Assembly: GCA_030619865.1 (NCBI GenBank)
Contig: JAUXAP010000005.1
Location: 1 to 49,076 of the forward strand
Source: Dehalococcoidia bacterium
Lineage (GTDB): Bacteria > Chloroflexota > Dehalococcoidia > Dehalococcoidales > JAUXAP01
Direction: 5' to 3'
DNA: 49,076 nucleotides
A program made the position numbers and the translations under genes. Under the pieces are notes generated by a model. That model worked only from the letters and a program-made list of their open reading frames with translations, made no database searches and was not told the origin of the DNA. Below, in pieces: positions 3,957 through 49,076 of this stretch. Within the stretch, counting starts at the first letter, position 1, and each line of letters starts with the position of its first letter.

Positions 3957-4814
3957 TCACCCGAACTGCTCGGCAACGTAATCAGGTATATCCAACGTGC
4001 CCATAATTATCGGTTTTTGGTGACAATCACTGCCTCCTGTCATAATCAAACCGTGCTTCTTGGCGAACTCAATATAGTGGGCACTGGTCTCCTTATCATG
4101 CCTTGAGTGCCAGCACTCTATACCATCAATATAGTTTAGCATATATTCCTCAATAATTTTTGTTTGTTCGTCCAAATCAGGTGTTATGCTTACTAAAGAT
4201 GTACCGTTCGGGTCATTGGGGTGCGCATGCACCAGTATACCACCGGCGTTTCTGATCAATGTTGATGCTTCAGCAAGTGGAAGTGGGTACTTAGGCACAT
4301 TACACTTGACCAGATATTTGTCAAACGCTTCTTGCTTATTCTTCACAATCCCTTTTTCTATCAGGTAGTTGGCTATGTGAGGTCGGCCAAAGACACCGTC
4401 GACACTAGCCTGTATGTTCTTGAGGTCTTCGTCGGTGAATTTTTCAATATTCTCTTTATCAAATTCAATATTCAGTTTCTCTAAGATTTGACGAGCTCTC
4501 GTTTCTCTATGCTCTTTTATCAATTGAAGCTTGTTTTTTAGCTCTTGATTGCTGATATCATACTGGTATCCTAGAAAATCCAAAGGAACGGACTTATTAA
4601 GATACTGGAATGTCACATTCAATTCTACCCCGGTAATATAGTCTATGCCATATTCTTCAGCCAGAGTGATAGCTCTTTCCTGACAGTCTATAGAATCGTG
4701 GTCGGTTATTGACACTAAATTGATATTTCCTTTCTTTGCTTCCTTGAAAACCTCCTCAATAGAGAGATTACCATCCGAACCGGTCTTGGTGTGGATGTGT
4801 AAATCTATTTTCAT
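3957..4814 (-). CDS. PHP-domain phosphoesterase
   Basis: MKIDLHIHTKTGSDG, SITDHDSIDCQERA, GVELNV, VHAHPNDP, GGSDCH; ATG at 4814 preferred over the longer ORF start at 4847. Confidence 0.85.
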   Translation of the reverse strand: MKIDLHIHTKTGSDGNLSIEEVFKEAKKGNINLVSITDHDSIDCQERAITLAEEYGIDYITGVELNVTFQYLNKSVPLDFLGYQYDISNQELKNKLQLIKEHRETRARQILEKLNIEFDKENIEKFTDEDLKNIQASVDGVFGRPHIANYLIEKGIVKNKQEAFDKYLVKCNVPKYPLPLAEASTLIRNAGGILVHAHPNDPNGTSLVSITPDLDEQTKIIEEYMLNYIDGIECWHSRHDKETSAHYIEFAKKHGLIMTGGSDCHQKPIIMGTLDIPDYVAEQFG

Positions 4815-4816
4815 GG

Positions 4817-5419
4817 CTACTTCTTTTCCGCACCGATGATATACCAATCTTCTGACGAGTCATACCGGGTATCAACTATCAAGTGGGTGATATTAAGGTT
4901 GGGATACAAGTTCTTTAAGTCATTCAGGTCTACTTCTTCAAATCTCTTTTTATTGTTGAGGTAGGCTTGCTCGGTCAGTGCGTTTGATACATAATCCTCT
5001 TTAGTCCGCTCCAGTATCCGCCTGATTGATACCTCCTGCGGACAGTCGGTTTGAAGGATGACGAACCTCAGGTTGTGCTTAGCAGCTATGGCCGCAGCAC
5101 GCCTCCTTAATGACTGGGTGACGAAGGTGGCATCGAGTATCACACCATCACTCTTGTCTAGAGTCTCATCTGCCCGCCGGAACATCTCTTCATAGACCAT
5201 CATCCGCTTATCCATATTTGAGGCCACCTTTTCGTCGAAAATGTCCTCATTTTTCAGCACTTCCAGTCTAATCAGGTCAGAGCGAAGCAGGGGATAGCCC
5301 TTAATCTTAGCTACTTCCTCGGTTGTCTCCGTTTTCCAGGTGCCGGGAAGACCACAGGCGATAAGCAGAAAACCAGCACCCAGCTCTTTTTCCATGAATT
5401 TTACAAATGGTTCTCTCAA
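4817..5419 (-). CDS. P-loop kinase (AAA_33/COG0645-like) with atypical Walker A GLPGTWKT
   Basis: ACGLPGTWKTETTEEVA, LRSDLIRLEVL, ILDATFVTQSLRRRAAAIA; directly follows the APH-like gene. Confidence 0.75.
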   Translation of the reverse strand: MREPFVKFMEKELGAGFLLIACGLPGTWKTETTEEVAKIKGYPLLRSDLIRLEVLKNEDIFDEKVASNMDKRMMVYEEMFRRADETLDKSDGVILDATFVTQSLRRRAAAIAAKHNLRFVILQTDCPQEVSIRRILERTKEDYVSNALTEQAYLNNKKRFEEVDLNDLKNLYPNLNITHLIVDTRYDSSEDWYIIGAEKK

Positions 5420-6486: not shown

Positions 6487-7011
6487 TTAGTGCTCTTGGG
6501 TTTTTAGCCAGCGCAGTAGTTCGTCGAGTACCTGATGGTAGTTGGCTCTGGTTACCATTACTAAATTTACCCGAGGCCGGCGTTTGATAACATCTGCCCA
6601 CGGGTTGGGATTGAGCATAATAGTTCCTAAAACTCTCTTTTCGCTGTCGATAATCTGTAAGACGGCCTCCCTGAAGTTAGTCGAAAACAACTCCATTTTC
6701 CCGATTTCGTCAATGATTACTAAATCACACGCCTCGGCTGCCTTACGGAGGGCAGAAACACCTACCTTATCTAAACTATCAGTGTCAACCCCATATTTAC
6801 TTACCCGGTGTGGACTATGAATATTAATATGAGCCAGTATGGCTTCCTGCCCGTCCAGGGTAACCAGTCTGAAGCCTTCCCTTACCCCCTTACTTCGTAT
6901 TTCCTCGGTATAGAAGCCACCGGCTTTACCTTTCATACCAGTTACTGCCTGCTTGATCAGGCTGGTTTTCCCAGCCCCAGGTCTGCCGGTGAGGAGATAA
7001 ACTTGCTTCAT
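6487..7011 (-). CDS. THEP1-family nucleoside-triphosphatase
   Basis: LLTGRPGAGKTSLIKQA Walker A, GGFYTEEIR, DLVIIDEIGKMELFS Walker B. Confidence 0.88.
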   Translation of the reverse strand: MKQVYLLTGRPGAGKTSLIKQAVTGMKGKAGGFYTEEIRSKGVREGFRLVTLDGQEAILAHINIHSPHRVSKYGVDTDSLDKVGVSALRKAAEACDLVIIDEIGKMELFSTNFREAVLQIIDSEKRVLGTIMLNPNPWADVIKRRPRVNLVMVTRANYHQVLDELLRWLKTQEH

Positions 7012-7030
7012 AGGCTTTTACCGCTGTAGT

Positions 7031-7129
7031 CTATGACTTAGGCTGAAGCTTTGCCTGAGTCTTCTTTAATTCCAGCTTCTTTCTCTTGCGCCGGTGTTTA
7101 ATGAGAGCTACCCTTTTTCGCTTATTCAT
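7031..7129 (-). CDS. Unlisted 32-aa highly basic small protein, possibly ribosome- or RNA-associated
   Basis: Reverse-strand ATG at 7129 to TAG: MNKRKRVALIKHRRKRKKLELKKTQAKLQPKS. Fits the gap between the DUF6485-like gene and the THEP1 gene; weak Shine-Dalgarno. Confidence 0.6.
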   Translation of the reverse strand: MNKRKRVALIKHRRKRKKLELKKTQAKLQPKS

Positions 7130-7152
7130 CGTTAACAACAATATACCTTAAA

Positions 7153-7371
7153 TCAGGTTTTCCTACTACTCTTAGCTTTATTAGTAAAGACCTCGGCAAA
7201 TTTGGCAAAGGAGCGGTCGTAGGTCTTCTCCACCTCAGGAGGGAATACACAGGCAGGGAGTTCATCAAATTCCAGGTGGTAGGTAATGCACTCACAGCAC
7301 TTACCTTTTCTAGAACAGGGCTCATAGGTGCAGGAGCATTTGGCTTTATTGACTTCAATCTGGCACTCCAT
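7153..7371 (-). CDS. Small Cys-rich protein (DUF6485-like)
   Basis: MECQIEVNKAKCSCTYEPCSRKGKCCECITYHLEFDELPACVFPPEVEKTYDRSFAKF. Confidence 0.75.
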   Translation of the reverse strand: MECQIEVNKAKCSCTYEPCSRKGKCCECITYHLEFDELPACVFPPEVEKTYDRSFAKFAEVFTNKAKSSRKT

Positions 7372-7383
7372 TGGAATCCTCTC

Positions 7384-8412
7384 TTAAAGGTAGCGTGTTC
7401 TTATTGCTTTTGACAGCTCAGCCAGTAGCTCCAGGGCTTGGCCTGCTGCCTCATTGGTGGCTAGAGGTGCCAGCCCACAGCTGGGGGTAAGCAACCCCTG
7501 CTCTATCAATTGTTTGAAGCGAATACCATTTCTAGTAAAGGGTGCTATTGCCTCCTCCAAGCGGTCTTTTAGACTGGCTACCGATTCCTTAGCTAGCGAT
7601 TCTTCGTCATTAGGGATAATCCCCCAGGCAATAGTTCCTTTCCGGTCAAGGAATTTTTTTACTTCGGCTGGATAGAGACTTAGTGACTGAGCATAGTTGT
7701 AAGTGTCAAAGCTCAGTATATCGGCACTGGTGTCCAGCAAAACAGACCAGTCGGTATTGCCGCAGCAGTGAACCCCTTTCAGTCCACTGATTCCTTTAAA
7801 GACCTCCTCTAATAAGTTAGTAACCATCTCTTTAGATAAAGAGAAAAAGGCTGAGCCGAAGGACATCATATACGGTTCATCGACAAAGATAATGGTATTT
7901 CTGGAGATTTGGCTTAGCTGTTTTTCTTGCCAACTTGCTTTTAGCCTGAGCAGCTTGGCGGCAGCATCGGCAAGCATATCGTCATAGATTACAGACCGGC
8001 GGCTATCATCGGTAACGGTTAATCCCCAGCTAATCGGTCCCGTTATCTGCCCCTTAACTGCCAGAGGCGACAGGTTATCTAAGGCTAAGAAGCTATGTAG
8101 TCCCGCAGCATAGTCAGCACTAATGGGATATTTGTCAATGTCATTATCTAAATAGGCAGCGTAGAGCTTCTCCAGTGGGTTATCTAAGTCCTGAGAGCGG
8201 TCGACATAGATACGGTTCTCCTTAAGCACTATACCAGGGAAGCCCTCGCTGAACTGGGCATACATATTATCCAGAAAAGACCGTTTAGGTAGCTGGGGCC
8301 AGGCAGGAATGTCTTTAAGGTAGTGGCTGACTTGCGCGCATGCCTCAGACGGGTCAGTATGAGGCATACTGCCAATAATAGTCGGTAAACAGCCAAATTT
8401 TATATTGGGCAT
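7384..8412 (-). CDS. Short MetE-family protein (core methionine synthase-like, UROD/MetE fold)
   Basis: 342 aa; IIGSMPHTDP, VKGQITGPISWG, FVDEPYM, VHCCGNTDW and LTPSCGLAPL carry putative His/Cys zinc ligands; lacks a MetE N-terminal domain. Confidence 0.75.
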   Translation of the reverse strand: MPNIKFGCLPTIIGSMPHTDPSEACAQVSHYLKDIPAWPQLPKRSFLDNMYAQFSEGFPGIVLKENRIYVDRSQDLDNPLEKLYAAYLDNDIDKYPISADYAAGLHSFLALDNLSPLAVKGQITGPISWGLTVTDDSRRSVIYDDMLADAAAKLLRLKASWQEKQLSQISRNTIIFVDEPYMMSFGSAFFSLSKEMVTNLLEEVFKGISGLKGVHCCGNTDWSVLLDTSADILSFDTYNYAQSLSLYPAEVKKFLDRKGTIAWGIIPNDEESLAKESVASLKDRLEEAIAPFTRNGIRFKQLIEQGLLTPSCGLAPLATNEAAGQALELLAELSKAIRTRYL

Positions 8413-8417
8413 AAGGT

Positions 8418-9293
8418 TTAAGCCTTTCTATCTCTGATATACTTGCCTATTAGCAGGTCGAGTTTTTTCCTCTGCTCGGCTGGTATGCACTCCGGGTCAG
8501 TGACAATGGCTGTCTCCAGTGCTGTGGCGCAGTCACAATCGCGTTTCCCAGGTATTCTGCTGGCGGCTAGCTTGATAATTTTCTTGGCGATATCAATGTT
8601 TTTATAGAGAATACCTAAAATGATATCCACCGTTACTGGCTGATTTTTCTCATGCCAGCTATCATAATCAGTGACACAGCCGATGATAGCGTAGCAGATT
8701 TCCGCCTCTCGTGCCAGCTTGGCTTCGGGCAGTGCCGTCATACCAATGATGTCAGCTCCCCACGAGCGGTAGAGTCGTGATTCAGCTCGAGTAGAGAAAG
8801 CGGGACCTTCCATAGCTACGTAGGTGCCTCTTTGATGGACACTAGCTCCTACCTCTCGGGCTGCCTGATACAAAATGGAGCTTAGTTTTGGGCAAAAGGG
8901 TTCAGCGAAGGGGATATGGCTGACAATACCGTCACCGAAGAAGGTATTAACCCGGTTTCGGGTTCGGTCTATTAGCTGGTCGGGAATAACTATGTCGCCG
9001 GGCTTTATCTCTTTCTTAAAACTTCCCGCTGAGTTAACGGCAATAATCCACTCCACACCCAGCGACTTTAAGGCGTAGATGTTAGCTTGGTATGGTACCT
9101 CGGTAGGGGAGATGCGGTGCCCCTTGCCATGCCGGGACAAAAAGGCAATCCCTATCCTCTCTAGCCTGCCGGTGGTAATGGTATCACTCGGCTTGCCAAA
9201 GGGTGTATCTATATTAACCTCTTCAATATCAGTCATCCCTTCAATATCGTACAACCCTGTTCCTCCGATAACCCCTATCTTTGCCGGTGGCAT
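8418..9293 (-). CDS. mtnP: S-methyl-5'-thioadenosine phosphorylase
   Basis: IGVIGGTGLYDIEGM, FLSRHGKGHRISPTEVPYQANIYALKSLGVEWIIAVNSAGS, YVAMEGPAFSTRAESRLYRSWGADIIGMT. Confidence 0.95.
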   Translation of the reverse strand: MPPAKIGVIGGTGLYDIEGMTDIEEVNIDTPFGKPSDTITTGRLERIGIAFLSRHGKGHRISPTEVPYQANIYALKSLGVEWIIAVNSAGSFKKEIKPGDIVIPDQLIDRTRNRVNTFFGDGIVSHIPFAEPFCPKLSSILYQAAREVGASVHQRGTYVAMEGPAFSTRAESRLYRSWGADIIGMTALPEAKLAREAEICYAIIGCVTDYDSWHEKNQPVTVDIILGILYKNIDIAKKIIKLAASRIPGKRDCDCATALETAIVTDPECIPAEQRKKLDLLIGKYIRDRKA

Positions 9294-38877: not shown

Positions 38878-39558
38878 TCACCCTTGAAGTAGGCAAAGCG
38901 CCTTGTTAAAAGCCGCTTGGTTACTGGTAACCACCGGTAGGCCGAAAGCTGCTTTCAATTGGGGGATAGCTTCCATGGCTCGGAAATTGGTGCAGGAAAA
39001 GAAGAGGCAATCGGGATTTAGCCCTTGAATCTTCTCTTTAGTGAATTGGACGATTTGGTCCACACCTACCTGTGCGATGGCGAAGTTCTCGGAGATTCCT
39101 AAGCCAAAGATACCAATGGCCTCCAGCCCTGACGCTTCAATACTGCTCTTGATGCGCTGATTGAGTTCGTCCACGTATGGGGTAAGGATGAGCACCTTCT
39201 TTGCCTCTGTTGCGACTAAGGCCTCATTAACGGATTCGATGACACTGACCACGGGGGATGTGGTCACAGCGGATATCTCGGCGCACATCTTCCGGGCGTA
39301 GTCACGCCCACGTAAGGCACCACCGGAGGTGCAACCAAAGACCACTACATGGGGACGCACCGTGCTTAAGTCCTTGGCTGCCGGAAGAGTAAACTCATCA
39401 AGCATGCGCTCCTCACCGGCGACGGTGGTCTCCTCCATATACATTCGTGCCGTGTGCAGGCTGACATTTTGGGGCAGATGGCGGTAGAAATCGGGCTCCA
39501 TCACGGAGTTAGAAGAGGGCACAATAAGCCCCATGCGCTGCTGCTCTTTGGCAATCAT
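38878..39558 (-). CDS. Arylmalonate decarboxylase/maleate isomerase-like Asp/Glu racemase-superfamily protein
   Basis: RMGLIVPSSNSVMEPDFYRHLP; two Cys motifs VVFGCTSGGALRG and FFSCTNFRAMEAI; LPVVTSNQAAF. Confidence 0.85.
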   Translation of the reverse strand: MIAKEQQRMGLIVPSSNSVMEPDFYRHLPQNVSLHTARMYMEETTVAGEERMLDEFTLPAAKDLSTVRPHVVVFGCTSGGALRGRDYARKMCAEISAVTTSPVVSVIESVNEALVATEAKKVLILTPYVDELNQRIKSSIEASGLEAIGIFGLGISENFAIAQVGVDQIVQFTKEKIQGLNPDCLFFSCTNFRAMEAIPQLKAAFGLPVVTSNQAAFNKALCLLQG

Positions 39559-39601
39559 ATTGAGTTCCTTTCCAGTTTAGGCAAAGCTCTCTCCACCTTT
39601 T

Positions 39602-40477
39602 CTAAAGTCCCAGAAGCTTTCTGGGGTTAGTCTTAATGAGCCGCTCCACATCCTTCTCTGGCATGCCCTTCTCATAAAGGCACTGGGCATAGATACGCAA
39701 GCCCTCATTGGGCATCGGGTTATGACGCTGACCACCATCGCTACTAATGACGCAATTATTTACCCCTAGAGCCTCGATGGTCTCCTTTACTCTGTCTATT
39801 GTGGTGTAAGCCCACATGGGTGAGACAGTGCAATAGACGAACTCGGGCATAGCGCCCAAAGAGAACATTTCTTTAAGGAAGTCTAGATCTTCCGCGCCCA
39901 CTGGGACACAGAAAAAGGGATGGGTAATCAGTATCTTTTTAACTCCCCGCTTGCGGGCTTCAGTCACGAGGAGGCGGATTTCGGGCACAGAAAGGTGAGC
40001 GGTACCCAGGATAGTATTATACTGGGCAATGAGTTCCAGTACCTCAATAGCTTCAGGAATAAGTTTGCCATTCTTAAGTACAGTAATACCTGCCTTGGTC
40101 TTTTTGCTTCCGCTTACCTGCACATCATAGACACCGGTGGAACCGTGCACTTCGGCATGGTGCGCCGAGTCAATAGTAGGCATCCAAACCTCCTTGGCTC
40201 CAATCCGCAGCGCCGCTTCCACTGCTGAGGGATTGATGCCTCCCACATAAGAATTTAGCACAATACCGCCGAAAATCTTGAGCTCCGGAAACTCGCTCTG
40301 CAAGAGATAAGCACGGCTGGCTGTGCTCTCATGGTGACATTTGAACATGATGGCGGCTATACCTGCCTCAGCTGCAGACTGAGCAATGGTTCGGTCATCC
40401 CCAATACGGGGGAAGAGGCAGGGGTGGGTGTGGATGTGAAGGTCAATGGCACCATGTATATCTATCAAACTAGGCAT
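39602..40477 (-). CDS. Amidohydrolase-like metal-dependent hydrolase (DUF6282-like)
   Basis: AIDLHIHTHPCLFPRIGDD, FKCHHESTASRAYLL, GTAHLSVPEIRLLVTEARKRGVKKILITHPFF, VISSDGGQRHNP. Confidence 0.82.
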   Translation of the reverse strand: MPSLIDIHGAIDLHIHTHPCLFPRIGDDRTIAQSAAEAGIAAIMFKCHHESTASRAYLLQSEFPELKIFGGIVLNSYVGGINPSAVEAALRIGAKEVWMPTIDSAHHAEVHGSTGVYDVQVSGSKKTKAGITVLKNGKLIPEAIEVLELIAQYNTILGTAHLSVPEIRLLVTEARKRGVKKILITHPFFCVPVGAEDLDFLKEMFSLGAMPEFVYCTVSPMWAYTTIDRVKETIEALGVNNCVISSDGGQRHNPMPNEGLRIYAQCLYEKGMPEKDVERLIKTNPRKLLGL

Positions 40478-40498
40478 ATCTTACTCCTTTCTTATTCC

Positions 40499-41662
40499 TT
40501 ATTTTAGGGAGAGGGCTTGGCGTGGGCACGTCTCCACGCAGAGGCCACAGCCATCACAGTTTTCCGGTCTGGTATTAAGATGTCCTTGCCTATCGGTGTA
40601 GAGGGCATCGTAGAAGCAGACCTTAAGACATAGACCACAGTCGTCACACTTTTCCTGTTCTAAAATCACATGCTTCGGAGGGCAGGCTGCATATTCTTGG
40701 ATAGTGGTGATATGGGGAAGGGTGATGCCCCGAAAGTCCTCAATAGAATTATACCCTTTGCGCTCCATAAACTGGCTAAGTCCGCTTACTAACTTGTCCA
40801 GGACTTCATAGCCATCCCACATGACAGCAGTAACGGTTTGTACCGTAGTCGCTCCCAGCATGATGTATTCCACTATGTCCTCCCAACTGCGCACTCCACC
40901 TACGGCCGAAATAGGAATGTCTACCGCCCGGGCTACCTCGGAAACGAAGCGCTGGATGATAGGCTTAATAGCTGGACCGGTATAGCCACCATAGGCTGGA
41001 AGGTAAGGTTTCCCCGTTTCTATATCTACCCCGGCCAGGGACTTTACCGAGTTGGATATAGTGAGAAAGTCAGCTCCGGCATCTTTAGCCGCCTGGGCGA
41101 TGGGTACCATGTCGGAGACATTGGGAGTCATCTTCACTCCCACTGGCAGACTGGTTGCCTCCTTTACTGCCCTGGTCTGAGTAACCACTATTTCGATATT
41201 TTGCTCTACCATATTTTGACCCACATGGGCATCAGACACAGGGCAGGAGACATTGAGTTCAAACATATCAACAAGGCCAGTGGCTTCCACTCTCTTGGCA
41301 AGTGCTACAGTCTCTTCTGGGGCACCCTCGGCTACGATGCTGGCAATTACTTTGGCTCCTCCCTCAGCGGCGATGGCTAGCTCTCGGTCGAGCCATTCTT
41401 CGAGGGGCATGGTGGAATAGAGCTCTGTATTTACCATGCCGAAAGGGCGCCTTCTGCCGTGGCGGACGAAATGCAGGCGTCCGCAGCGAGGATGCTGGCT
41501 CAAGAGAGCTGGCGTGGTGATGGTCTTGGGAATTATAGCCCCCGCTCCAGCCAGCCCTCCCTTTTTTGAAGCTTCACCATCCCGGCTGGGGGTCGCTGAC
41601 CCCAAAATAATGGGGTTACGTAACTTTACTCCGGCAAAGCTTACCTCTAGTCTGTCAGTCAT
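40499..41662 (-). CDS. Dihydroorotate/dihydropyrimidine dehydrogenase-like flavoprotein with C-terminal 2x[4Fe-4S] ferredoxin domain (PreA-like)
   Basis: KLRNPIILGSATPSRDGE, ELNVSCPVS, PVGVKMTPNVSDM, CDDCGLCLKVCFYDAL and CDGCGLCVETCPRQAL. Confidence 0.88.
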   Translation of the reverse strand: MTDRLEVSFAGVKLRNPIILGSATPSRDGEASKKGGLAGAGAIIPKTITTPALLSQHPRCGRLHFVRHGRRRPFGMVNTELYSTMPLEEWLDRELAIAAEGGAKVIASIVAEGAPEETVALAKRVEATGLVDMFELNVSCPVSDAHVGQNMVEQNIEIVVTQTRAVKEATSLPVGVKMTPNVSDMVPIAQAAKDAGADFLTISNSVKSLAGVDIETGKPYLPAYGGYTGPAIKPIIQRFVSEVARAVDIPISAVGGVRSWEDIVEYIMLGATTVQTVTAVMWDGYEVLDKLVSGLSQFMERKGYNSIEDFRGITLPHITTIQEYAACPPKHVILEQEKCDDCGLCLKVCFYDALYTDRQGHLNTRPENCDGCGLCVETCPRQALSLK

Positions 41663-41683
41663 ATTTCCTTCTTGGTGCCAAAG

Positions 41684-42769
41684 TCACACTGCATATTTGG
41701 CAATAACCTTTCTGTCCAGTTCAATCCCGAGCCCTGGTCTTTGAGGCGCGTTAATGTAGCCATCCTTCACCTCAAAACGGGAACCAGCTACCTCGTTAAT
41801 ATGTGTGTTCAATTTGGGAAGGGTCTCAGCGATCAAGGCATTAGGCACCGAGGCAAGTAGATGCACTGAGATGTGTGGTATGCCATGCGGTGCGAAATAT
41901 ATATGATGAGCGTCTGCCATCCCGGCGATTTTCCTGGATTCAGTAAACCCACCAGCTATCCCCACATCGGACTGGATTATATCCACAGCCCTGCTCTCTA
42001 TTAGTTCCCTGCATCCCCAACGGGTAAACTCATTCTCGCCGGAGGCAATTGGCACCCAGGTTGCCGCACGCAATTCCTGGTGCCCCCTGATATCGTCCGG
42101 CTGCACCGGCTCTTCGAACCAGAATGGATTAAATTGTTCCATACTCTTGATAAAATGCCTAGCTTCAGATGAGGTAAAACCGTTGTTAGCATCCAGCATA
42201 AGGTCTATATCATCTCCAATTGCCTCTCTCACCGCTTTTACCCGCTCTATGTCTTCTTTCAGACTGACCCTGCCGATTTTCATCTTAACTGCTGGATATC
42301 CCATACTAACGAAGCCGCACATCTCGTCTACTAGCTCTTTAACCCCCTCACCCTCCACATAGTAGCCACCACTGGCATAGGCTCGAATCTTGTCGCGGAA
42401 TCCCCCGAGGATTTTCCAGACCGGCTTTTCAACTGCTTTGCCTATGATGTCCCATACGGCGATGTCGATGGCACTAATAGCGCGGAAGAGGTCGCCTTTG
42501 GCTACAGGCTTTCGCCATGACCGGTACATCTTATGCCATATCCTCTCTACATCAAAGGGGTCTTCACCGCAGATAACATCCTTGAGGGGACCCTCGGCAT
42601 GCATAGCACTGGCTCGACCGCTAGCAATGCTCACGCCCGTTATGCCTTCGTTGGTGGAGACCTCCACTACAGATACAATTCGCGAAGTGTAGGTCAATAT
42701 GGCATTAGATATTGCTTTGGGTCTGTTACCGAAATCTAAAATTGTCGTTTTTACGTTGGTGATTTTCAT
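41684..42769 (-). CDS. Mandelate racemase/muconate lactonizing enzyme-family protein (KxK type)
   Basis: AVKMKIGR, LMLDANNGF, FWFEEPVQPDD, IASGENEF, QSDVGIAGG, YFAPHG. Confidence 0.92.
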   Translation of the reverse strand: MKITNVKTTILDFGNRPKAISNAILTYTSRIVSVVEVSTNEGITGVSIASGRASAMHAEGPLKDVICGEDPFDVERIWHKMYRSWRKPVAKGDLFRAISAIDIAVWDIIGKAVEKPVWKILGGFRDKIRAYASGGYYVEGEGVKELVDEMCGFVSMGYPAVKMKIGRVSLKEDIERVKAVREAIGDDIDLMLDANNGFTSSEARHFIKSMEQFNPFWFEEPVQPDDIRGHQELRAATWVPIASGENEFTRWGCRELIESRAVDIIQSDVGIAGGFTESRKIAGMADAHHIYFAPHGIPHISVHLLASVPNALIAETLPKLNTHINEVAGSRFEVKDGYINAPQRPGLGIELDRKVIAKYAV

Positions 42770-43443: not shown

Positions 43444-44610
43444 ATGAACCCAGCCGTGGAATCTCTGAAAAAGCGGGGTGCCATTTATGAGAGGCTAGGA
43501 GTTAAACCAATTATTAATGCGGTGGGTACGTGGACAGACTACAGCGGCTCGACTATGGAGCCTGAAGTGGTACAGGCTATGGTAGAGGCCAGCCGTGTGA
43601 TGGTCAGGATGCGGGACCTTAACGAACGCGCAGGAGAGCTAATAGCGAAATATACGCACGCTGAGGCAGGCTTGGTTACTGCCGGTGCAACAGACGCGAT
43701 GTTACTCCAGGCGGCGGCGTGCATAGCTGGGAAAGACTTGGCAAAGATTAAGCAGCTTCCCGACACCGAAGGCATGAAGAACGAAATAATCATCAATTGG
43801 AACCATAACGTTTCTTTTGAGCGTGCTTGGCGTGCGGCAGGTGCTAAGCTAGTCTGGGTCGGCTCGAGTGCCAGTGGTGCCCGCAATGAAAAAAGCTGGC
43901 AAGTCGAGGCAGCGATAAACGATAGAAGTGCAGCTCTAGCGTTTATCGCCACCAGGGCATGTCCCGATTCGTTTGAGTGGCTAGACGAAATGGTGAAGAT
44001 AGCACGGCGCCATGGTCTACCGATGATAGTGGACGCGGCGGCAATGCTGCCACCGGTGGAGAATCTCTGGAGATTTATCGACCATGGGGCTGACATGGTA
44101 GCCTTCAGTGGTGGAAAAGCAATAAGGGGTCCTCAATCTACAGGGATTTTGTGTGGTCGGCGAGACCTGATAGAAGCGGCGGCTCTCAATCATAGTCCCA
44201 ATTCTATAGCAATCGGTCGAACGGCGAAGGTATGTAAGGAGGAGATTGCTGGTTTGATGGTGGCACTCGAGCGTTATATAAAGCGTGACCATATAGCAGA
44301 CCAGCGTAGGTGGCGTGAACGGTGCAACACGATAGCGACTGTGATAATGGACATCCGTGGAGTCAAGACAGCGATACTACAGGATGATTGGACTCGCCCC
44401 GTTCCGGAGCTAGGTATCCACCTCACTAGTGACTGGGCAGGACCGTCTCCGGACGAGATTGTCGATATCATGGCCAAAGGCGACCCTCCAATTTGCATCA
44501 GGAAGAGTCGGTGGTGGGGAGAACAATTGTTTATTAACCCGCATGGACTTGCGGAGGGCGAAGCTGAATTAGTGGGGCAGCGGCTATGCGCTGCCATGAT
44601 GGGGAAATAA
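43444..44610 (+). CDS. SelA-like PLP-dependent enzyme
   Basis: ERLGVKPIINAVGTWTDYSGS, MIVDAAAMLPPVENLWRFIDHGADMVAFSGGKAIRGPQSTGILCGRRDLI; AAAAAGGAGG Shine-Dalgarno. Confidence 0.88.
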   Translation: MNPAVESLKKRGAIYERLGVKPIINAVGTWTDYSGSTMEPEVVQAMVEASRVMVRMRDLNERAGELIAKYTHAEAGLVTAGATDAMLLQAAACIAGKDLAKIKQLPDTEGMKNEIIINWNHNVSFERAWRAAGAKLVWVGSSASGARNEKSWQVEAAINDRSAALAFIATRACPDSFEWLDEMVKIARRHGLPMIVDAAAMLPPVENLWRFIDHGADMVAFSGGKAIRGPQSTGILCGRRDLIEAAALNHSPNSIAIGRTAKVCKEEIAGLMVALERYIKRDHIADQRRWRERCNTIATVIMDIRGVKTAILQDDWTRPVPELGIHLTSDWAGPSPDEIVDIMAKGDPPICIRKSRWWGEQLFINPHGLAEGEAELVGQRLCAAMMGK

Positions 44611-44751: not shown

Positions 44752-45156
44752 TTATTTTGGCTTTACTTCTTGTAGTTGAATCCATCTACGCCCATCGGCA
44801 TCGGAAATTCGGCCAAGTGTCCTGCCACTTTTGGGATTGTAATCTGGGGTAGATACGTATGTTACGCCCTTTTTTCTCAGCTCTTCACTCTCTTTGTGTA
44901 CATCTTCCACCTCAAAGGCGACATGACAGAGATATGGCCATCCCTTCACCGGTGCCTCTACTTCTTTCAGTTTATCGCTTACTTTGACAAAGTCAAAGAG
45001 CAAATCACCAGCGGGCGACATTAGCCCGACTGATGGTCGCCCTGGACGCTCGGCAAGGAGCTGAGGCTTAAATCCCAGTTTTTCGGTAAAGTATTTAACT
45101 GTTCCTTCTAAGTCGTCAACAGCAAAATGTAAGTGATTAACTTTTCCCAGAGCCAT
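44752..45156 (-). CDS. VOC (glyoxalase/dioxygenase) superfamily protein, copy A
   Basis: MALGKVNHLHFAVDDLEGTVKYFTEKLGF...HVAFEVEDVHKES...GRRWIQLQEVKPK; ATG 45156 after GGAGGTGTAAT. Confidence 0.88.
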   Translation of the reverse strand: MALGKVNHLHFAVDDLEGTVKYFTEKLGFKPQLLAERPGRPSVGLMSPAGDLLFDFVKVSDKLKEVEAPVKGWPYLCHVAFEVEDVHKESEELRKKGVTYVSTPDYNPKSGRTLGRISDADGRRWIQLQEVKPK

Positions 45157-45247
45157 ATTACACCTCCAATATAATATTATGTGATAGTAGAAGTTCAATT
45201 CTTCTCTAACTTCGGGTTATGAACCCTTGGGCCATATTACACCTCCA
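45152..45247 (-). repeat. 17-bp direct repeat duplicating the VOC copy A Shine-Dalgarno and start codon
   Basis: gccatattacacctcca at 45152-45168 and 45231-45247, offset 79 bp. Confidence 0.9.
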
Positions 45248-45258
45248 TCAAGCCTGCC

Positions 45259-46332
45259 TTAGTAACTCGCTATTGGCTTACCCAATGATTCCCAATCAAT
45301 CTCAACCCCAAGTCCAGGCTTTTGCGGCGCATGAATATAGCCTTCATTGTCGAGGACGGGGTATTCCTTGAGACCATATCTGAATTCGGGCCAGAACATT
45401 TCGTAAAATTCACAGTTTTTCGCCGCACACTCAACATGTAGATTCGGGAAGCCCCCTAGGTGAAGCTCACACTTCATCCCAAAGGCATCACACATGTCAG
45501 CAATCTTCTTACAGGGAGTAATGCCACCACTAATCCGAGTATCACAGCGAATTATATCACATGCCCCACGAAGCAGGTACTCAGGAATCATGCTCATTGG
45601 AGCCGACTCAGTAGCACAGATGGGAACATTGAGCTTTTCTCTGAGTTTAACTAAACCCTCAATATCATAATCCCAAATCGGCTCTTCATACCAGTAAAAA
45701 TTAAGTTTTTCTACTTCTTTACCCATTCTGAGTGCCTGTTCGCGGCTGTAATAGTGGCGGCCATCAAACATCAGTATCATATCATCACCAACCGCTTTTC
45801 TGACCGCCCGACAAACTTCAATGGCAATCGCTGGACGGACATGTATCTTATAACCAGCAATGCCTCGTCTTTGGCAGTCAAGGGCTTCATCTACATAGTC
45901 CTGAACAGTAGGCAGCCAATAGGAAGTGGCATATATCTTTATCTTATCCCGGTAGGCACCCAAAAGTTTATAAATCGGTTGTCCCAGCTCCTTGCCCGCA
46001 ATATCCCACAATGCGACATCTACAGCCGACAAAGCTCCTACAGGAACTTGCAAGCCCCATAATCTTTGCCAAATCCACTCCCTATCAAACGGGTCTCTGC
46101 CGATTATCTCTTCTTTAACTCTGTCGATATCGCGTTCAGCGACGGCTCTAGGATAACCCCAAGCAACAGCGCCTCCAAAATCGTAGCCCTCTATTCCATC
46201 ATCGGTAATAATCCTCATTATGGGGAAGAGTGGTTTACCAGTGGGGCGTGTAACAAATTCTCGCCATCCTTTGGGAGGTTCAAAGGGCTCCTTTTGGAGA
46301 TACACCTCATACCTAACATCTTTGATTTCCAT
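45259..46332 (-). CDS. Enolase-superfamily dehydratase/racemase paralog 1 (KxH type)
   Basis: GYKIHV, LMFDGRHYY, YWYEEPIWDYD, ICATESAPMS, RCDTRISGGITPCKKIADMCDAFGMKCELHLGG. Confidence 0.92.
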   Translation of the reverse strand: MEIKDVRYEVYLQKEPFEPPKGWREFVTRPTGKPLFPIMRIITDDGIEGYDFGGAVAWGYPRAVAERDIDRVKEEIIGRDPFDREWIWQRLWGLQVPVGALSAVDVALWDIAGKELGQPIYKLLGAYRDKIKIYATSYWLPTVQDYVDEALDCQRRGIAGYKIHVRPAIAIEVCRAVRKAVGDDMILMFDGRHYYSREQALRMGKEVEKLNFYWYEEPIWDYDIEGLVKLREKLNVPICATESAPMSMIPEYLLRGACDIIRCDTRISGGITPCKKIADMCDAFGMKCELHLGGFPNLHVECAAKNCEFYEMFWPEFRYGLKEYPVLDNEGYIHAPQKPGLGVEIDWESLGKPIASY

Positions 46333-46375
46333 AGTTATTCCCTCTTAACAGTTGATTTTTGGTGCATAGCCTCTC

Positions 46376-47476
46376 TTAGTAACTCGCTATCGGCTTACCC
46401 AGTGATTCCCAGTCAATCTCGACACCCAGCCCCGGTTTTTGCGGAACGTGAAGATAACCTTCATCATCGAGGACAGGGTATTCTTTGAGGCCATAATTTC
46501 TGACTTCCGGCCAGAACATCTCATGAAATGTGCAGTTTCTAATGGCACACTCAACGTGGAGATTTGGAATCTGACCGGCAAGATGAATCTCACACAGCAC
46601 ACCAAAAGCATCACACATATCGGCAATCTTTTTACAGGGGGTAATGCCCCCACTAATCAAACTATCACAACGCACCATATCACACGCCCCGCGAAGTAGA
46701 TATTCAGGAATACTAAACATACCGCCAGCAACACACTCAGTAGCGCAGATTGGTACAGTCAATTTCTCTCTGAGCCTGACCAAACCCTCAATATCATCAT
46801 CAGACAGTGGTTGCTCAAACCAGTAGAAGTTAAGTTCTTCCAGTACTCTGCCTACTCGAAGTGCCTGTTCACGACTGTTACCAGTGCCGCCATCAAGCAT
46901 TAATGTCATATCATCCCCCACTGCCTTACGCACGGCACGACAAGCGTCAATAGCAATATCTGAATCAACGTGCAGCTTATAGGCAGTAATGCCCTGTTCT
47001 TTACAGGAGAGGGCTTCCTCAGCATAATCTCCAGGAGTAGGCAGGCGATAAGAACTGGCATATATCCTTATTTTGTCACGATATCCGCCCAGAAGCTTAT
47101 AAATTGGCAACCCCAGTGCCTTGCCGGCAATATCCCACAAAGCGATGTCCACTGCCGCCAAATCACCTAAAGTCTCTCTCCCATATTCACCGTAGATGCG
47201 ACCCCAAGCATGCAATGTGGCGAATTCCTGCCAAATCCATTCTCTATTAAACGGATCCACGCCGATTATAATTCGCTTGATTTTATCGATTACCGGCTTA
47301 GGGATTACTTTGTAACTTAAAGAGTAACCTTCTATACCCTCATCAGTAATAATTTTTAATATCGGGAAAGGCATTTTACCTTTGGTAACACCCCAGTGTT
47401 TCCCTAGTATCCTGGGAGGTGGAGGTATAGGTGAATCTCGAAGGTATTCTTCATACTTGATGTCTTTAATCTTCAT
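46376..47476 (-). CDS. Enolase-superfamily dehydratase/racemase paralog 2 (KxH type)
   Basis: AYKLHVDSD, LMLDGGTGN, YWFEQPLSDDD, ICATECVAGG, RCDSLISGGITPCKKIADMCDAFGVLCEIHLAG. Confidence 0.92.
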   Translation of the reverse strand: MKIKDIKYEEYLRDSPIPPPPRILGKHWGVTKGKMPFPILKIITDEGIEGYSLSYKVIPKPVIDKIKRIIIGVDPFNREWIWQEFATLHAWGRIYGEYGRETLGDLAAVDIALWDIAGKALGLPIYKLLGGYRDKIRIYASSYRLPTPGDYAEEALSCKEQGITAYKLHVDSDIAIDACRAVRKAVGDDMTLMLDGGTGNSREQALRVGRVLEELNFYWFEQPLSDDDIEGLVRLREKLTVPICATECVAGGMFSIPEYLLRGACDMVRCDSLISGGITPCKKIADMCDAFGVLCEIHLAGQIPNLHVECAIRNCTFHEMFWPEVRNYGLKEYPVLDDEGYLHVPQKPGLGVEIDWESLGKPIASY

Positions 47477-47515
47477 AGTAACACACTCCTCAGGGATAAT
47501 TATTACTAGACTCTA

Positions 47516-48613
47516 CTAATAGCTGGCTACCGGTTCACCCAGTGACTCAAAATCAATCTCAATGCCTAGTCCCGGCTTTTGCGGAGCATGAATATAGCCT
47601 TCATCGTCAATGACGGGATATTCTTTGAGACCATATCTCTCTTCTGGCCATGACATTTCGTGAAATTCGCAGTTCTTTGCGGCACACTCGACATGGAGGT
47701 TGGATATATTGCAGGCCCACCCGTGGAGTTCACACTGCATACCGAAAGCGTTACATGTGTCGGCAATCTTCTTGCACGGAGTAATGCCACCATGAAACCG
47801 GGTATCACAGCGCACAATATCACATGCCCGGCGAAGCAAGTACTCAGGTATGCTGTACATACCCCTCAGGGGAGTCTCAGTGGAACAGATGGGAACATCG
47901 AGTTTTTCTCTGAGCATAACTAAGCCTTCGATATCATGGTCTTGAACCGGCAGTTCGAACCAATAGAAGTTGAGTTTGTCCAGTTCTTTACCCACCCACA
48001 GTGCCTCTTCACGGTTATAACGGCCAGCAGGGTCAAACATCAGTTTCATATCATCACCAACTGCCTTCCTGACTGCTCGACAGATTTCAATATCCTTCTC
48101 TCCAATTCCCCAATAAGGATGTATTTTGTAGGCGGCAATTCCTTGCTCTTTGCAGGAGACGGCCTCATCTACATATTCTTGGATGGTGAGTTTGCCATAG
48201 GAACTGGCATATATTTTTATTTTATCGCGATATCCGCCCAAAAGCTTATAAATTGGTTGCCCCAGTGCTTTGCCGGCAATGTCCCATAGGGCAATATCTA
48301 CCGCTGACAAAGCTCCTAAAGTAACTGGCGCACCGCCTCTGCCATGTAAATACCATAATCTTTGCCAAATCCATTCCCTGTCGAGAGGGTCTCTGCCCAC
48401 TATCTCTCGTTTGATTACACTAGTGGTTGGTTCAGTGATGTTGCTATAGCCAAAAACCTCAGTGGCAAAGCCCTCTATGCCATCATCGGTAATAATTCTC
48501 ATTAAGGCGAATGGTTTTTTCCCGGTGGGTTCTGGGACGTCTGCTCTATGTACTCTGGGTGCTGAAGGCTGCTCATGGAAATACACTTCATATCTGACAT
48601 CTTTAATCTTCAT
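47516..48613 (-). CDS. Enolase-superfamily dehydratase/racemase paralog 3 (KxH type)
   Basis: AYKIHPYWG, LMFDPAGRYN, YWFELPVQDHD, ICSTETPLRG, RCDTRFHGGITPCKKIADTCNAFGMQCELHGWAC; ATG 48613 preferred. Confidence 0.92.
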   Translation of the reverse strand: MKIKDVRYEVYFHEQPSAPRVHRADVPEPTGKKPFALMRIITDDGIEGFATEVFGYSNITEPTTSVIKREIVGRDPLDREWIWQRLWYLHGRGGAPVTLGALSAVDIALWDIAGKALGQPIYKLLGGYRDKIKIYASSYGKLTIQEYVDEAVSCKEQGIAAYKIHPYWGIGEKDIEICRAVRKAVGDDMKLMFDPAGRYNREEALWVGKELDKLNFYWFELPVQDHDIEGLVMLREKLDVPICSTETPLRGMYSIPEYLLRRACDIVRCDTRFHGGITPCKKIADTCNAFGMQCELHGWACNISNLHVECAAKNCEFHEMSWPEERYGLKEYPVIDDEGYIHAPQKPGLGIEIDFESLGEPVASY

Positions 48614-48674
48614 AGCTGCCCTTTCTAACCGTTGATATAGCATAACGTATGGTTGAAGGTAGTCAAAGAGTCAT

Positions 48675-49073
48675 TTATTTCTTTGGCTTCACTTCATGCA
48701 ATTGAATCCAACCACGCCCCTCGGCATCACGGACACCGGCAAGGCTTCTGCCAGTATGTTGTTCAAACTCTGGTCCATAGTGGAATGGGACTTCTTTACT
48801 TTTCAGCTCCTCACATTCTTTCTCTAAATCAGCCACTTCAAAGGCGAGATGTTCAAGATATGGTCTGTCAGGATTGTTCTTAGATTCCTCAGTTACCGGG
48901 ACAAAGTGAAATTCTAAATCACCGGCGGGTGAGGCTAGTTCGATATGCATATCACCTGTCGGACGCTTAACGCGTCTTACAACCTTAAATCCTAGCTTTT
49001 CAGTAAAGTACTTGACTGTCTTTTCTACGTTATCGACGTGGAACTGTAAGTGATTAACCTTTCCTAGAGCCAT
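48675..49073 (-). CDS. VOC (glyoxalase/dioxygenase) superfamily protein, copy B
   Basis: MALGKVNHLQFHVDNVEKTVKYFTEKLGFKVV...HLAFEVADLEKECEELK...GRGWIQLHEVKPKK; paralog of copy A. Confidence 0.88.
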   Translation of the reverse strand: MALGKVNHLQFHVDNVEKTVKYFTEKLGFKVVRRVKRPTGDMHIELASPAGDLEFHFVPVTEESKNNPDRPYLEHLAFEVADLEKECEELKSKEVPFHYGPEFEQHTGRSLAGVRDAEGRGWIQLHEVKPKK

Positions 49074-49076
49074 ATT

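Follow-up and report, generated by a model that had tools for sequence, protein, structure and literature searches.

A putative operon of diversified acid-sugar dehydratase/epimerase-type enolases with VOC partners in a Dehalococcoidales genome outside the SAR202 lineage

The window analyzed here, 49,076 bp, is the whole of contig C18 from an 823,101-bp Dehalococcoidales MAG (G000) that is 58% complete. Its right end carries five minus-strand genes, and the open reading frames and Pfam matches agree with an earlier note on this DNA in assigning them to three MR/MLE-type enolases and two paralogous VOC proteins (VOC1 and VOC2, 56% identical). VOC1 (44752..45156), a glyoxalase/methylmalonyl-CoA-epimerase-like metalloprotein (Pfam Glyoxalase, 9e-11), starts at an ATG at 45156 with GGAGGTGTAAT as its ribosome site; a spacer (45157..45258, minus strand) separates it from the enolases e1 (45259..46332), e2 (46376..47476) and e3 (47516..48613), which have KIH, KLH and KIH at strand 2, respectively, and VOC2 occupies 48675..49073. 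The gene coordinates given earlier hold, except that alignment with the paralogs places the start of e3 at 48613 and not at 48643. The array also runs on past the window. The last 141 bp of the window (48936..49076) match the right end of contig C19 exactly, sharing 122 20-mers over their full length, such that the reverse complement of C18 starts with the last 141 bases of C19; the join is made from sequence overlap and not from reads. The last complete genes on C19 are the UxuA-like one (L012 5658-6800) and enolase e4 (6803-7906), after which VOC2 begins. Rightward extension, which the earlier note had advised in the search for further units, thus adds a fourth enolase and the UxuA-like gene, and the joined transcription order is UxuA-like, e4, VOC2, e3, e2, e1, VOC1, a run of seven genes in one direction, separated by 2-109 bp. 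VOC2 follows e4 and VOC1 follows e1; the VOC genes do not bracket the array, and that impression was an artefact of the contig end. In any case, the array is real, and it is the contig end that distorts its appearance.

At the DNA level the array repeats are about 1.13 kb apart, with segments 61-81% identical. The e1-to-VOC1 and e4-to-VOC2 spacers are clearly homologous, and hence the enolase-spacer-VOC unit was duplicated. This is the homology that does extend beyond a stop codon; the similarity formerly read as continuing past the stop in copies 1 and 2 lies inside the gene, since TTAGTAACTCGCTAT, read on the opposite strand, is ATA GCG AGT TAC TAA, the last four codons (IASY) and the stop. 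We also considered whether the enolase-VOC spacer folds as a leader RNA, but z-scores of +0.7 and -0.9 do not support this. Elsewhere in the window, the minus strand at 38878-42769 holds a run of four genes, for an arylmalonate decarboxylase/EutA-like protein, a DUF6282 protein, a PreA-like protein with a dihydroorotate-dehydrogenase fold and a ferredoxin domain, and a K-x-K enolase, which looks like another organic-acid catabolic operon. Convergent with the array, on the plus strand at 43444-44610, is a DgaE/SelA-like PLP ammonia lyase gene whose product is related to D-glucosaminate-6-phosphate ammonia lyase, under the cut-off (214 of 600 bits).

The family assignment of the enolases is straightforward. 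They exceed the Pfam gathering scores for MR_MLE_C (PF13378) and MR_MLE_N, with 172-186 and 45 bits, respectively, and D195, E221, E247, K167, H169, D271 and H298 are invariant in nine of nine clade members (eight from G000 and one from a second genome of the order, G027). The mandelate racemase subgroup is recognizable in the metal ligands D195/E221/E247, modeled at or just past the ends of strands 3, 4 and 5 of the barrel, and in the Asp-His dyad of strands 6 and 7 (D271 and H298). Its K-x-K at strand 2 is replaced in all nine by K167-x-H169; some accepted acid-sugar dehydratases likewise have no K-x-K. In an AlphaFold model of e2 (pLDDT 87, pTM 0.88), the catalytic residues all sit where barrel strands 2-7 end or right next to these points. 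The earlier observation that all copies keep the Asp, Glu, Glu ligands and K-x-H, where the enolase at 41684 has K-x-K, is correct, but the motif is not peculiar to the array, being present in related Dehalococcoidia proteins (G052, G093-G096, G137 and G011) and in PDB entries 4jhm and 1rvk. Judged by this distribution, K-x-H is an inherited family trait and not a local innovation. The best match in both sequence and structure is 1rvk/4hch (E 3e-75 by profile, TM 0.88, 33-34% identity). None of the curated isofunctional NCBIfam models was reached (best 142-152 bits against cut-offs of 500-750) in a comparison with equivalogs that include the talarate/galactarate, gluconate/galactonate, arabinonate, mannonate and rhamnonate dehydratases; the copies thus do not fall into one shared characterized family, the outcome that would have told against diversification. 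The UxuA-like gene, at 98.6 bits, is likewise well below the NCBIfam mannonate-dehydratase cut-off of 191 bits.

The array is only part of the enolase complement of this MAG, which comprises at least 8 enolases of the array clade, 11 MR-type enolases overall and 10 VOCs. Contig C23 carries four more close paralogs (C23a-d, L009 9558-14103) and, upstream of that four-gene array and beside a creatininase-family gene, a 27-residue C-terminal remnant of a fifth enolase (L009 14209-14289, minus strand); hence copies have been both gained and lost. The eight copies of G000 and the one of G027 form a clade with 100/99 support, in which pairwise identity is 60-72% (64-70% among e1-e3), and dN is 0.19-0.30 against dS of 0.62-2.25 where computable. 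By these estimates the copies are old and under purifying selection. The C-termini, described earlier as near-identical, are indeed conserved as protein, but the silent sites of this region have diverged as much as those in the rest of the genes, and we therefore reject recent gene conversion as an explanation of the similarity. Trees in which each array forms its own clade are rejected in the case of C23 (p-AU 0.003) and, weakly, in that of C18/C19 (p 0.04); moreover, e3 of one array groups with C23b of the other (97/85), so that duplication would have preceded or crossed the present arrays. A tree constrained to hold the eight G000 copies as a clade without G027 gives p 0.43. There were no plasmid homologs above 60% identity. 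On the sequence evidence, the origin of these genes is an old, lineage-specific expansion of one K-x-H MR-type enolase family whose closest solved relative is Atu3453 (1rvk).

Divergence among the copies is concentrated where substrates would be expected to bind. The 20s, 50s and barrel-end loops show 2.33 times as much substitution as the rest of the protein (circular-shift p=0.002), for a loop set that follows the superfamily's general anatomy and was fixed after the alignment was seen and without coordinates. The loop/rest ratio is 2.0-3.2 in every array pair and 0.59-1.57 in six control sets (orthologs or other paralog pairs) that are not divergence-matched in every case; for the barrel ends alone, the ratio is 1.75 versus 0.44-1.22 in controls. 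The active-site differences pointed out previously (EEP/EQP/ELP and TESA/TECV/TETP) are real, and the loop excess bears out the proposal of amplification followed by substrate diversification. We take this as good evidence that the predicted pockets of the copies have diversified.

The VOC genes have a history of their own. Membership in the VOC superfamily is indicated by Pfam PF00903, by the secondary structure (paired beta-alpha-beta-beta-beta modules) of a model of modest confidence, by Foldseek and by the metal-ligand positions. The top Foldseek fold matches are methylmalonyl-CoA epimerases, found with a weak VOC model (pLDDT 66.5), and the two array VOCs, at 30.1 and 26.0 bits, miss the methylmalonyl-CoA epimerase cut-off of TIGR03081 (114.95 bits). 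Eight further intact genes of the same family stand in tandem on contig C16 (L044 4680-8571), and thus 8 of the 10 VOCs of the MAG are at a tRNA-fMet/queD/folK locus. In a third genome of the order, G018, a lone VOC gene lies directly 3' of an intact tRNA-fMet gene and upstream of queD and folK; the eight-gene array of G000 occupies this queD-folK locus too, and again an intact tRNA-fMet (L044 548-622) precedes the VOC genes. From 548 to 8621 of L044, this tRNA gene and fragments of it are interspersed with PIN, AKR, DinB and the eight VOC genes. The five fragments (1436-1489, 4609-4648, 5099-5132, 7112-7156 and 8589-8621) are all 3' pieces, in the orientation of the intact tRNA and missing its 5' part. 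This pattern suggests repeated site-specific integration at the tRNA 3' end, with unequal crossing-over as the alternative, and the locus resembles a hot spot for serial integration into the initiator tRNA gene, which would point to an island-style spread of VOC genes; no integrase was seen. The enolase-VOC spacers also contain a short tRNA-like stretch, matching at 16/17 and 18/20 positions (0/1000 shuffles as good), which in the e1-VOC1 spacer is a probable decayed tRNA-fMet piece at 45210-45226 (16/17 identical). Scores of that size also arise by chance in kilobase scans, and we consider a link of these spacers to tRNA-fMet probable. The C23 enolase array has no VOC gene, so the VOC is not an obligatory partner.

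Of the 156 genomes of the order, G000 and G027 alone contain the close enolase clade, and a scan of GTDB R220 yielded a single close relative, Dehalococcoidia CSMAG_1256, the same contig as that of G027. The VOC family is found in 3 of the 156 (G000, G018 and G027); in 393 genomes sampled from the class, none outside G000 carried it at E 1e-25. Both genomes with the enolase clade have the VOC family (hypergeometric p=2.5e-4, a small-number result from two genomes). The G027 contig reads ABC importer, AOR, SDR, VOC, ABC importer, enolase, with the VOC about 4.3 kb from the enolase, and so the linkage, the absence of which in related genomes had been named as grounds for doubt, recurs. That contig (C52) also has a repeated segment (CTGGTCCTG.CGGGG...GGTGCCGGG) in three copies around its VOC gene (L046 7470-7755, 8209-8760). 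The suggested connection with SAR202 does not hold for this genome, which is not placed in the SAR202 order: its own is taken to be the Dehalococcoides-type order, Dehalococcoidales, because it includes single-contig 1.5-1.7-Mb genomes with 19-27 reductive dehalogenases, and the genomes with 67-109 enolase candidates belong to another order and share only the class. Four of six other order members checked have only weak, sub-cut-off MR-type domain matches.

What the operon does can be proposed from its parts. In our reading, held with moderate confidence, the five array genes of the window are the distal portion of a catabolic operon of seven genes. It would encode acid-sugar dehydratases/epimerases that have diversified, together with VOC partners resembling methylmalonyl-CoA epimerase, in a genome outside the SAR202 lineage. 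Each enolase would have its own sugar acid or hydroxy acid as substrate and abstract the alpha proton from it with metal assistance, using K167/H169 as bases on one face and H298 on the other; mostly, expulsion of the beta-hydroxyl (loss of water) would then give a 2-keto-3-deoxy acid, although some copies may epimerize. Dehydration seems the most likely outcome in light of the nearest named relatives, the UxuA-like partner, the UxuA relatives in 8 other loci bearing distant enolase relatives, and the genes of HpcH/HpaI aldolase, AKR and RraA-like type in other parts of the MAG. These last genes, with the UxuA-like gene in the operon, also make a dedicated pathway plausible. The UxuA-like protein, the HpcH/HpaI aldolase and the AKR, together with enzymes such as the AOR and SDR of G027, would complete a non-phosphorylative route; the SAR202 proposal has the same kinds of partner, COG3836 and COG0667 (PMC10444878). 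The VOC partner would perform a second metal-enolate step, an epimerization or isomerization, on substrate or product. That it acts in this way on a sugar acid is a guess from the enolate chemistry common to both families, and the VOC role is the weakest part of the mechanism.

Other readings of the copies and their chemistry have to be weighed against this one. The copies could all catalyze the same reaction, kept by chance or for expression level, with loops that merely reflect relaxed constraint. A star-like tree with weak inner branches would fit, as would the degraded copy on C23, a sign that copies are also lost; yet the catalytic residues are all invariant while the loops nearest to them vary most, the 2.0-3.2-fold loop ratio holds in every pair versus 0.6-1.6 in control sets, and near-saturated silent sites imply long retention, all of which makes simple redundancy quite improbable. 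It is also rather improbable, if slightly less so, that the main role of the enolases is to interconvert the stereoisomers of alpha-hydroxy or amino acids, with the VOC as a second epimerase. Acid/base residues are retained on both faces (K167/H169 and H298), the VOC resembles methylmalonyl-CoA epimerase, and such a role has been put forward for the SAR202 enolases in the idea of chiral complexity (PMC6946804). Against a racemase/epimerase repertoire stand the named sugar-acid dehydratases among the nearest solved relatives and the UxuA-like dehydratase within the operon, and work on cultured SAR202 favors dehydration in non-phosphorylative sugar routes (PMC10444878).

The pairing of the two families admits an accidental origin too, in which VOC genes spread by tRNA-fMet-linked insertion and landed near enolases with no functional coupling. 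The concentration of 8 of 10 VOCs at the tRNA-fMet/queD/folK locus would agree with this, and the spacer homology can be taken as one linkage event, duplicated later; but enolase and VOC are linked in G027 as well, amid different surroundings, and the VOC genes have been kept intact inside a co-directional operon, so we think mere accident unlikely. A more ambitious reading, which we offer tentatively and as a doubtful case, is a paired repertoire: two unrelated metal-enolate families would have multiplied jointly (no fewer than 8 enolases and 10 VOCs in 58% of a small genome), the VOCs possibly through serial integration at the initiator tRNA 3' end, with each pair serving a different sugar-acid stereoisomer. 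The SAR202-type strategy would then have originated independently in the order known for organohalide respiration.

Expansion of acid-sugar enolase paralogs has so far been discussed as a SAR202 specialty, and the separate and compact expansion seen here in Dehalococcoidales suggests repeated evolution of the strategy. Four closely related enzymes in one operon, differing mainly in pocket loops, are a tractable system for loop-to-substrate rules, and the recurring VOC partner is a concrete lead for an unassigned VOC family. In the papers searched, we found nothing relevant on an enolase-glyoxalase tandem array. The COG4948 paralog expansion of SAR202 (Lucifugimonadales) shares with the array the class Dehalococcoidia, the superfamily and proposed parallel sugar-acid routes with aldolases and AKRs (PMC6946804, PMC10444878). 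It belongs to a different order; the array is a compact tandem operon with VOC and UxuA-like genes, and the array clade was not found in SAR202 at matching similarity (best class matches about 341 bits versus 647-691 for the array). With methylmalonyl-CoA epimerase and YaeR-type VOC metalloproteins, the array VOCs share the fold, invariant His8 and His75, and a second ligand position occupied by His or an acidic residue. Unlike them, the array proteins have Gln124 in all copies as the last ligand, usually Glu, fall far under the family cut-offs (30 versus 115 and 45 versus 140 bits), and have no CoA-pathway context. The closest parallel for the enolases is Agrobacterium Atu3453 (PDB 1rvk, 4hcd, 4hch, 4hcl and 4mmw; 4HCL is listed as Atu3453 in PMC13424184), named D-glucarate dehydratase by the depositors of 4hch. 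It has the same K-x-H at barrel strand 2, metal-ligand positions and His at strand 7, but only 33-34% identity, other substrate loops and no array membership known here, and because the position of D271, the Asp of the array's Asp-His dyad, is Gly in 1rvk, catalysis in the array enzymes may differ from that of 1rvk.
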